The position numbers and the translations under genes were made by a program. The notes below the pieces were generated by a model. That model searched no databases and was not told the origin of the DNA. It worked only from the letters and a program-made list of their open reading frames with translations. DNA of 64,000 nucleotides from Rhodocyclales bacterium (GTDB lineage Bacteria > Pseudomonadota > Gammaproteobacteria > Burkholderiales > Rhodocyclaceae): NCBI GenBank assembly GCA_016235165.1, contig JACRLX010000007.1:186001-250000 (forward strand), written 5' to 3'. Shown one piece after another: positions 8,729 through 63,691 of the stretch; positions within the stretch are counted from its first letter, which is position 1; each line of letters begins with the position of its first letter.

Positions 8729-8767
8729 GCGTGCAGGCAAACAGCGGCAGAGCAACCCGCAGCGCGC

Positions 8768-8873
8768 GATCGGGCCGCCAGGGTGCCCTGCTCCGCTTCA
8801 TGTCCCCCGGGCCGATGAATCGCCGGCCCTCCTCCTTTACTTACGCGGAACAGGGCACCCTGGCGGCCCGATC
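8768..8873 (-). ncRNA. Candidate structured RNA or ssDNA element, unit A
   Basis: Two 29-base arms (8768-8796 and 8845-8873) are complementary with one mismatch and enclose exactly 48 bases. Read on the minus strand, the interior shows GTAAAGGAGGAG, an inner hairpin, then CGGGGGACATGAA. Unit B on the other strand has the same layout and the same 48-base interior with different stem sequences that still pair. Type is uncertain: it may be a transcribed RNA, a paired terminator, or a non-coding mobile repeat. Confidence 0.5.
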
Positions 8874-8923
8874 CGGAAACGCCTCACCGGTTTGCCGTAG
8901 CAATGCGCACACCTTTCCCGCCC

Positions 8924-9017
8924 GGGTTGTCGGGTGTCCGATTCCCGCAGGTAAAGGGGGAGAAGCAGGCGAAGCCTGTTTCGGAGGACACGGAGGGAAT
9001 CGGACACCCGGCAGCCC
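8924..9017 (+). ncRNA. Candidate structured RNA or ssDNA element, unit B
   Basis: Arms at 8924-8946 and 8995-9017 pair over 23 bases with two G-U type positions and enclose 48 bases. The interior has GTAAAGGGGGAG, a 9-bp inner hairpin with a GAA loop, then CGGAGGACACGGA. The unpaired blocks match unit A while the hairpin changes by compensatory substitutions. It ends 27 bases before the acyl-CoA dehydrogenase start, so it could affect expression of the downstream half of the operon. Confidence 0.5.
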
Positions 9018-9044
9018 AGGCGCCGCGGGAAGGCTAATCCAACC

Positions 9045-10178
9045 ATGAATTTCGACCTAACCGACGACCAAAAGGCGATCCGCGACACCTTCGCCCGCTT
9101 CTGCGACGAACGCATCGCGCCACAGGCAGAAGCGCTCGACGAAGCGAAACAGTATCCCCGCGCCCTGTTCCAGGAACTCGCCGACCTCGGCTTCTTCGGC
9201 ATGCGCTATCCGGAGGACGTCGGCGGCACCGGCATGGCGCTGACCGAGTTCGCCATGGCGCTGCAGGAAATCTCGCGCGGCTCGATGTCGCTGGCCGGCG
9301 CCGTGGCCATGCAGTCGCTGATGGGCACCAAGTTCCTGCACCTGCTGGGCAACGCCGACATCATCGAGCGCCTGTTCAAGCCCGCGCTGCGCGGCGAGAA
9401 GATCGGCGCCATCTGCATGACCGAGCCGAATGCCGGCTCCGACCTCGACTCCATCGCCACCACGGCGAAGAAGGTCGGGGGCGGCTATGTGATCAACGGC
9501 CAGAAGACCTGGATCACCTCGGCGCCGGTGGCCGACTTCTTCACTGTCTTCGCCAAGGCCGGCGAAGAGAAGAAGCTGACCATCTTCCTCGTCGAGAAGC
9601 ACTTCAAGGGCCTCATCGTCGGCCGCGAGATCCACAAGATGGGGGTCTGGGCCCTGCCCACCTCGGAAGTCGCCTTCGACGAATGCTTCGTCCCCGACAG
9701 CCATCGCCTGTCGAAGGAAGAAGGCGACGGCGAAAGCCATTTGCGCAAGACCCTCGGCGAAATTCGCATCATCACCGGCGCCATGGGCCTGGGCGTAGCC
9801 CACGCCGCACTCGCCGAAGCCGTGCGCTACGCGGGCGAACGCCAGCAGTTCGGCAAGACTATCAACCGCTATCAGGCGATCCAACTGAAGCTCGCCGAGA
9901 TGGCCACCGAACTCGAAGCCGCCGAACACCTCGTGTACTACGCTGCCTGGCTGTGCGATTCCGGCCGCCCGTACCACAAGCACGCGGCGATGGCCAAGCT
10001 GTTCGCCACCGAGACTGCGGCCAAGGTCTGCGACCAGGCGGCGCGCGTCTTCGCCTCTTATGGCTACGCCATGGAATACCCGGTGCAAAGGTATCTCCGC
10101 GACGTGCGCTTCACGCTGATCGGCGGCGGCACCAGCGAAATCCTCAAACTCATCATTGCCAAGGAAGTCTCCTCATGA
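9045..10178 (+). CDS. iaaF: Acyl-CoA dehydrogenase, probable decarboxylating 2-carboxyacyl-CoA (benzylmalonyl-CoA-type) dehydrogenase
   Basis: A 377-residue FAD-dependent acyl-CoA dehydrogenase with the usual three domains, including MTEPNAGSDL and the FGKTINRYQAIQLKLAEM helix. The C-terminal catalytic Glu of the family (IYEGTSE) is replaced: the sequence is LIGGGTSEI, putting Gly361 at that position. IaaF of Aromatoleum oxidises benzylmalonyl-CoA with simultaneous loss of CO2, so a base for C2 deprotonation is not needed; the substitution fits that mechanism. The direct coupling to the mutase genes (ATGA overlap) supports 2-aminobenzylmalonyl-CoA as the inferred substrate. Confidence 0.8.
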   Translation: MNFDLTDDQKAIRDTFARFCDERIAPQAEALDEAKQYPRALFQELADLGFFGMRYPEDVGGTGMALTEFAMALQEISRGSMSLAGAVAMQSLMGTKFLHLLGNADIIERLFKPALRGEKIGAICMTEPNAGSDLDSIATTAKKVGGGYVINGQKTWITSAPVADFFTVFAKAGEEKKLTIFLVEKHFKGLIVGREIHKMGVWALPTSEVAFDECFVPDSHRLSKEEGDGESHLRKTLGEIRIITGAMGLGVAHAALAEAVRYAGERQQFGKTINRYQAIQLKLAEMATELEAAEHLVYYAAWLCDSGRPYHKHAAMAKLFATETAAKVCDQAARVFASYGYAMEYPVQRYLRDVRFTLIGGGTSEILKLIIAKEVSS

Positions 10179-33132: not shown

Positions 33133-33146
33133 CGGCGCCGACTTTT
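33133..33146 (+). repeat. CGGCGCCGACTTTT motif variant
   Basis: A variant of the dispersed motif (GGCGCCGACTTT) lies four bases after the ClpX-like stop and abuts the foldback element. Confidence 0.35.
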
Positions 33147-33147
33147 A

Positions 33148-33412
33148 GGGCGTGTTCTCAATCATCCGGCGGATGGCGTTGAAGCCAGACGCGGATGGAT
33201 GCAAGGCGGAGGATGCCGGCAAGGGTAATCCCTTGCCAAGTCCGACAACGCCGCAGACGCCGCGTCTGGCCGCAACCCGAAGGGCCGGGTCAAATCGGGC
33301 GCGCTGCGGCGTTACGGCGCCTGGCAAGGTATGAACATCGCGGCGTCGCCGCGCCTTGCATCGCATCCCGATTTGATCCCGGCGCCACCGTCGCATGATT
33401 GAGAACACGCCC
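33148..33412. mobile_element. 265-bp MITE-like foldback element flanked by TA
   Basis: Terminal inverted repeats of 18 bases (GGGCGTGTTCTCAATCAT at 33148-33165, complement at 33395-33412) bound the element, and the dinucleotide TA lies directly outside both ends (33146-33147, 33413-33414). Further internal inverted segments occur (for example ATGCAAGGC and GCCTTGCAT; a GGGTCAAATCGGG-like pair). No transposase is encoded. TA flanks suggest movement by an IS630/mariner-type transposase. It sits between the ClpX-like gene and the promoter of the next gene. Confidence 0.65.
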
Positions 33413-33426
33413 TAGAGCCGGAGAGA

Positions 33427-63553: not shown

Positions 63554-63618
63554 GGAATCGTGATTGAAACGGCGGCAATGATCTGCTACCGCTGACTTGA
63601 AGCCCGACCGGGACCGTC

Positions 63619-63682
63619 ATTCCCGCGAAAGCGGGAATCCAGGATCCTCAGCCGGGTGCTGGATCCCCGCTTTCGCGGGGAT
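63619..63682. repeat. Nested inverted repeat between the binding-protein and livH genes
   Basis: TTCCCGC-GAAA-GCGGGAA and ATCCCCGC-TTTC-GCGGGGAT form two hairpins whose outer parts are also complementary (CGCGAAAGCGGG against CCGCTTTCGCG). It is a REP-like sequence of a kind common in betaproteobacteria and may attenuate transcription from the binding-protein gene into livH. Confidence 0.6.
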
Positions 63683-63691
63683 GAGGTTTTG

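Follow-up and report, generated by a model that had tools for sequence, protein, structure and literature searches.

REP, BIME and REPIN sequences are intergenic palindromes, often arranged as inverted doublets, in which the fold of one strand is recognised. Bacterial MITEs such as Correia and ERIC are short, multicopy and variable in their presence and absence, and IS200/IS605 ends and integron attC sites are strand-specific hairpins of single-stranded DNA (ssDNA) with unpaired conserved bases. REP sequences and IS200/IS605 ends act as folded ssDNA. One published account gives REPs as 20–40 bp long, mostly with a GTAG or CGTC tag (PMC3733652).

The repeat that we describe here, found in a 64-kb stretch of DNA (hereafter, the window), resembles each of these systems in part. 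Like REP and REPIN sequences, it consists of intergenic palindromes in inverted doublets (52/54 in the –/+ order) with one strand constrained; unlike REPs, its modules are ~105 nt long, with conserved internal loops, a sequence-free outer stem and no tag of the GTAG/CGTC type, and, unlike RAYT systems, it has no adjoining or tracking Y1 gene. Like the Correia and ERIC MITEs, it is short, multicopy and either present or absent at a site, and its Luteimonas form has terminal inverted repeats (TIRs) and an 8-bp duplication; however, it has a strand-specific, covarying module that is common to lineages in which the ends of the element differ. Like IS200/IS605 ends and attC sites, it has strand-specific hairpins with conserved unpaired bases, in what would be an ssDNA form. 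In contrast to both, a long stem of free sequence encloses these conserved bases, and in contrast to IS200/IS605 no Y1 gene adjoins the repeat.

In the window, we found that the gap between two genes of an operon, given as hyuB and a dehydrogenase gene in the first-pass annotation, holds the following features:

8729–9044 (316 bp), no strand: whole gap from the upstream stop codon to the downstream ATG; the ends of the insert inside it are approximate
8768–8873, sense strand minus: class II hairpin module, from its arms and folding; R1 score 98.6 bits
8797–8809, minus: class II loop block 2, CGGGGGACATGAA
8829–8840, minus: class II loop block 1, GTAAAGGAGGAG
8874–8918, no strand: 45-bp spacer that separates the two modules, whose 5' ends face each other
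8919–9022, sense strand plus: class I hairpin module, from its arms and folding; R1 score 107.9 bits
8951–8962, plus: class I loop block 1, GTAAAGGGGGAG
8982–8994, plus: class I loop block 2, CGGAGGACACGGA

The two modules together form one copy of a mobile repeat (8768–9022). The first-pass annotation had described two inverted structured units here, and this is borne out by their arms, interiors, loop blocks and folding. The class II arms (8768–8796/8845–8873) are 29 nt long, as had been described, and 97% complementary. In class I, the 23-bp stem of that description is only the uninterrupted inner part (8924–8946/8995–9017) of a full arm of 28 nt (8919–8946/8995–9022, 89% complementary), and pairing reaches 9022, five bases past the coordinates given earlier. 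The interior between the arms is exactly 48 nt in each module, as had been claimed, and both conserved unpaired blocks lie where they had been placed. The sequence GTAAAGGRGGAG occurs twice in the window, at 8829–8840 (minus) and 8951–8962 (plus), as compared to 0.16 occurrences expected with one mismatch allowed. Exact matches to CGGRGGACAYGRA are found only at 8797–8809 (minus) and 8982–8994 (plus); with two mismatches there are 12 matches in the 64-kb window as compared to 13.74 expected, which is no rarer than chance. Relative to 200 shuffles, the sense strands of the modules fold with z = –11.0 and –9.3, and the opposite strands fold well but less stably (z = –10.0 and –8.8). The class I sense strand is the plus strand, which is the strand of both flanking genes.

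When the two-block pattern was searched in the genome from which the window comes (the source genome), we found 12 matches and none for the reversed control; thus, the pattern in the window is not chance. Including weaker copies, the source genome has nine paired units, each with class II on one strand and class I on the other, 5' ends facing and ~45 bp apart, and in two of these units there is a nested insert inside one module. By a home-made gene caller, which underlies all of our orientation and context counts, class I is co-directional with both flanking genes in 9/9 units. The distance from unit to gene is 18–66 bp, and one downstream start was placed within the unit.

A covariance model built from 12 modules and then used for genome searches matched 17 of 31 same-genus genomes, none of six other genera of the family, one of 24 other genomes of the order and at least 13 of 397 genomes of the phylum, the last being a lower bound because nine candidates were scored per genome. 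All 13 come from three families: that of the source genome, a second of its order and one of its class. With the loop pattern, we found at least 120 stretches in named genomes, including Hydrogenophaga, Rhodoferax, Rubrivivax, Curvibacter, Aquabacterium, Variovorax and Sulfurisoma and, beyond the Betaproteobacteria, Luteimonas and Pseudoxanthomonas (Lysobacteraceae). The repeat is a mobile family of many Betaproteobacteria and of relatives of Xanthomonas. The first-pass annotation had staked its reading on homologues with covariation in Rhodocyclales, and such homologues do exist, over a range wider than one order. Further copies were fetched from 17 Luteimonas regions and 20 regions of two other genomes, which are part of all the copies. 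With one 281-bp unit as query, a plasmid search gave four partial matches, at most 40% covered, and a phage search gave no match. A 42.8-kb IMG/VR contig has one module near each end (L194 446–554 and L195 7349–7431) and is perhaps a provirus bounded by host repeats. At the level of titles and abstract openings, together with passages of PMC3733652, PMC10969869 and, on CRISPR only, PMC2755013, we found no account of this repeat in the literature, and an earlier one is possible in the Polaromonas JS666 genome paper, which is cited for MITEs in a passage of PMC10969869.

Each module has an outer stem that is free in sequence, internal loops that are purine-rich and conserved, and a hairpin at its apex. 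In a MAFFT alignment of 12 modules of the source genome, both sides change in 26 of 36 pairs, and covariation is 0.660 as compared to 0.221 after shuffling. In a set of 31 modules (29 from other loci and the two of the window), both sides change in 35 of 36 pairs, with 24/24 for the outer stem, and covariation is 0.839 as compared to 0.218. Slid structures reach at most 0.165 in this set, a control that the structure tends to exceed because it derives from folding these very modules. That structure is conserved over sequence, as first proposed from two units, therefore holds in many homologues. The remark that the pattern fits no family also stands for Rfam, which gave no match at the gathering score in the window, none for the element at a permissive threshold, and in 10 other loci nothing but two xanthine riboswitches. 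These two form a divergent pair about 1 kb from the element in Hydrogenophaga (L137 2265–2319 and 2415–2472).

The internal loops show coupled positions. Antisense echoes were taken out before counting, so that alignment A2 went from 126 to 121 modules, A3 (the genus set) from 114 to 76 and A5 from 90 to 81; the couplings could be parsed in 113/121 modules of A2 and 70/76 of A3, and the other eight and six rows were dropped, among them L137 with C-G at the loop R-Y pair. This R-Y pair is kept in 183/183 parsed modules. Its two partners, an R just ahead of GTAAAGG and the Y that ends ACAY, are A-T in 58 and G-C in 55 of the 113 modules, and A-T in 59 and G-C in 11 of the 70 genus modules. Positions R8/R4 are A/G in 91, G/A in 15, A/A in five and G/G in two of the 113, and G/A in 32, A/G in 29 and A/A in nine of the genus set. 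Loop conservation, Y10 and, in A2, the G7-G5 and R-only states are partly imposed, because the loci (at least 120) were picked by exact loop patterns; R0 and the stems are not imposed by this choice. From the coupled positions and the neighbouring combinations CGA/GAG and TGA/GAA, we infer tandem G·A pairs flanked by Watson-Crick pairs. The spacers show little structure as a group (mean z –0.5 to –1.1), and these z-scores give no general support to a third hairpin, which a few individual spacers do show.

To see which strand keeps the fold, we compared G·T with A·C on each module's own strand. Among outer-stem cells that are not Watson-Crick, there are 217 G·T and 30 A·C in 121 modules and 123 and 17 in 76 modules, in alignments that were fitted to the model and lean towards it. 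Structure-fitted counts for modules between tandem genes are 46 G·T and 4 A·C in sense (n = 23) and 50 and 5 in antisense (n = 29). When the arms are aligned with equal treatment of the two kinds, isolated mismatches are G·T in 292 and A·C in 40 cases, or 108 and 21 as distinct contexts. Of 320 distinct hairpins collected, 316 were used, giving 597:257 before restriction to isolated mismatches, and the 292:40 count comes from the same collection repeated without an identity cut. By group, the isolated G·T:A·C counts are 79:5 in the genus, 171:17 in other genera and 12:0 in one Oxalobacteraceae genome, and 30:18, a weak bias, in Luteimonas. At one orthologous site in 11 species, the ratio is 25:1 for sense and 22:6 for antisense modules, and at the window's orthologous site, with nine modules per class, it is 21:4 and 26:2; the pairs behind these ratios come from RNA folding, where G-U is permitted, so that the ratios are tilted towards it. 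Cores longer than 60 nt were left out, as were modules lying too close to the end of a contig (hence nine per class from 11 loci at the window's site). The own-strand fold of each module is kept whatever the operon direction, and the claim that one strand per unit is constrained is confirmed by the 292:40 excess. The G·T excess is found in antisense modules too, which speaks against operon mRNA or duplex DNA as the target of selection and in favour of folded ssDNA or separate transcripts. The two options of the first-pass annotation, an RNA or a protein-recognised ssDNA fold, are still the right ones; of these, ssDNA is favoured by the strand test, with separate transcripts possible.

Modules within 400 bp of each other lie back to back (–/+) in 52 of 54 cases. 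In 142 searched loci there are 150 units, 52 of them pairs and 98 single modules, which indicates that the back-to-back order is dispensable in places. Single modules between tandem genes are sense in 15 and antisense in 23 cases. Convergent gene pairs surround 38 of 116 classifiable units as compared to 66 of 614 background gene pairs (Fisher 1.8e-8, not from independent data because several loci share genomes), and divergent pairs surround 8/116 as compared to 77/614 (p = 0.08, not significant). Of the 150 units, 28 are at contig or locus edges and six are intragenic. In one locus (L110 4998–5088), a module lies inside a long open frame, presumably that of a cobyrinate synthase-like protein, and adds in-frame residues. 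When 100 of 152 listed neighbour proteins were scanned, we found no shared class among flanking genes (151 Pfam families, the commonest in 4/100), and we therefore rejected a gene-specific or riboswitch-like cis-regulator.

At orthologous junctions, the element is present in some genomes and absent from others. In 21 same-genus genomes with both flanks, the window's junction is filled in 10 (including the source genome and one copy that has lost most of its class II module), holds 7 nt in six and has other, unrelated inserts in five. A second junction, thiolase/hydroxyacyl-CoA dehydrogenase by Pfam, is filled in 11, empty in 11 and otherwise occupied in two (n = 24), and a third, at a branched-chain transporter, is filled in one, empty in four and otherwise occupied in 12 of 17 read, with one more unreadable. 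The element is thus a mobile repeat and no fixed operon feature; it is multicopy, too short for a transposase gene and variable at orthologous sites, all of which characterise MITEs. In the source genome, the right ends read AC directly followed by TGAMATG in 5/9 units, and the left ends read RATGAAA(A)CC in 5/9; there are three variants, and in the window copy no such end can be recognised. A stop/start junction is thus present on both sides of the unit. This repeated junction may be a 7–9-bp duplication, or it may reflect conserved ends combined with a choice of target; it is imperfect, and we saw no TIR in the window's genus. Similar junctions were found in two of five fetched Sulfurisoma loci (L418 and L419). 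Sister-species junctions have several unrelated inserts (L213, L219, L220, L260–L265, L267, L268, L272–L275, L297, L310; L214, L216), many of them long hairpins and two with an ORF that we take to be DUF559-like, as though inserts in general tended to land at stop/start junctions. The 15 copies fetched from one Oxalobacteraceae genome are all single modules, set in palindromes that reach about 50 bp by eye and whose middle varies from copy to copy. The module is constant, and its frame, that is, the ends of the element, varies between lineages.

Luteimonas terricola has about twenty copies, including partial ones, that share 86–97% identity with one of their number and ride in a ~400-bp element with ends GGTTCWTCTCCCAACT, for which there are 63 TIR sites and none in the control. 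Of 15 TIR pairs, 12 span 339–414 bp (370–414 bp plus one of 339 bp) and three are shorter or partial. An exact 8-bp duplication is present in two pairs, both at T-rich runs, and 7/8 in a third; most pairs lie at T/A runs. The weak strand bias (30:18) and this MITE form with TIRs and the 8-bp duplication suggest that the fold is probably no driver of the spread in Luteimonas, which probably is DDE-driven with the fold weakly kept and the hairpins as passengers. No ISL3 transposase was found in Luteimonas, and ISL3 was rejected as the driver there; among the TIR places listed with at most two mismatches, no facing pair lies 0.5–5 kb apart, as an autonomous relative might.

Other repeats were seen near the element or in the window. 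A ~73-bp GTAG-tagged, REP-like doublet (beginning GCGTAGGC) is present in L014:12708–12884, in L017 (minus-strand module near 9900–10080), in L204, L318–L324 and in other genus loci. Its 15 distinct contexts, which come from loci picked for carrying the element, are 13 after GTAAAG(G/A)(A/G)GG of block 1, one in block 2 and one outside the element; either it is a REP that targets the block 1 loop, or one insertion was spread by conversion. In the window, a 27-nt inverted repeat (beginning TAGGGCGTGTTCTCAATCAT) around 215 bp at 33146–33414 is MITE-like, and a 31-nt inverted repeat (beginning TCATTCCCGCGAAAGCGGGAATCC) at 63617–63684 is REP-like. Wide pairs in the source genome are complete units around host genes, and transposon ends around cargo were rejected on this ground; in the ORF lists of the wide pairs in L097, L104 and L110 we saw no transposase by eye.

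The family, its covariation, the back-to-back order, the insertion at gene junctions and the own-strand constraint whatever the gene direction are direct observations. Our preferred reading, to which we give about even credence, is a non-autonomous mobile repeat whose ~105-nt module is read as folded ssDNA. By analogy with REP sequences and IS200/IS605 ends, the module would work in this form, and a putative trans-acting protein would recognise the fold. With one module on each strand, a replication fork would present a single correct fold whichever strand it exposes, and this would account for the back-to-back order. An ancestral insertion between the two operon genes would have been followed by persistence with the fold intact. 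Against this reading, G·U is favoured in RNA too and both strands may be transcribed, the fold is kept at orthologous sites in up to 11 species (which suggests local function or conversion between copies over pure selfishness), the 9/9 class I orientation in the source genome is not in itself predicted by a strand-blind model, 98 of 150 units are single modules, and in Luteimonas the bias is weak and the unit moves as a TIR MITE. The main rival, which we consider rather unlikely though a real contender, is an RNA element in which each module is transcribed on its own strand, by convergent read-through or from promoters that are antisense or lie in the spacer; once folded, the RNA would bind a protein, or protect or process 3' ends. 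The conserved loops, whose non-canonical positions are coupled, resemble an RNA 3D motif. G·U outnumbers A·C, units are enriched between convergent genes (38/116) and class I follows the operon in all nine units, as such an element would have it; however, single modules are unbiased to the sense of tandem genes (15 as compared to 23 antisense), modules antisense to the operon are equally constrained, flanking genes share no common class and the spacers have little structure.

An ordinary DDE-type MITE with passenger hairpins, whose pairing would come from arm-to-arm template switching or inter-copy conversion and not from selection on the fold, is improbable in our judgement. The Luteimonas TIR sites, duplications and weak strand bias fit it, as do clustered double changes and whole-stem replacement between orthologues (by eye), but it leaves the 7:1 excess of G·T over A·C, the unchanged loops and the coupled loop positions unaccounted for, the ends vary between lineages while the module stays, and in Luteimonas neither an ISL3 transposase nor a facing TIR pair was found. 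A REPIN that owes its mobility to a RAYT (REP-associated tyrosine transposase) is in our view very improbable, although the palindromes are back to back, enriched at 3' ends and constrained on one strand, and a Y1 match is present in 10 of 12 element-bearing genomes of other genera and 26 of 31 genus genomes. Y1 is also present in genomes without the element, and there is no Y1 match in a 99%-complete draft genome with 13 R1 matches or in the Luteimonas draft, which has 82 R1 matches (both-strand echoes included, with up to 150 candidates scored per genome). None of 45 fetched Y1 loci, with about 1.5 kb per side where the contig allowed, has the element (best 13.4 bits). Moreover, the modules are ~105 nt long, every outer-stem pair varies and there is no constant tag at the foot. 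A RAYT/IS200 driver was therefore rejected, since Y1 loci neither carry, adjoin nor track the element, and a REP/RAYT family, named at the outset as what might explain the palindromes, probably does not explain them. From the Y1 loci, the ISL3 search in Luteimonas and the ORF lists of the wide pairs, no partner of the element emerged, be it a transposase or another protein.

Taken together, these data lead us to propose, with a confidence just short of even, that the module represents a new class of nucleic-acid element that acts on one specific strand. It would probably be an ssDNA fold of ~105 nt whose purine-rich internal loop is coupled, with putative recognition by an enzyme, and it would pass between lineages within differing mobile frames, namely inserts at stop/start junctions, long single palindromes and TIR MITEs. 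The family is large and its covariation exceptionally strong, and evolution itself shows which strand folds, irrespective of the direction in which the neighbours are transcribed. The question of which protein reads the fold of the module, and whether as ssDNA or as RNA, thereby becomes testable. If it is ssDNA, the module would add a recognition system beyond those of REP, IS200/IS605 and attC.
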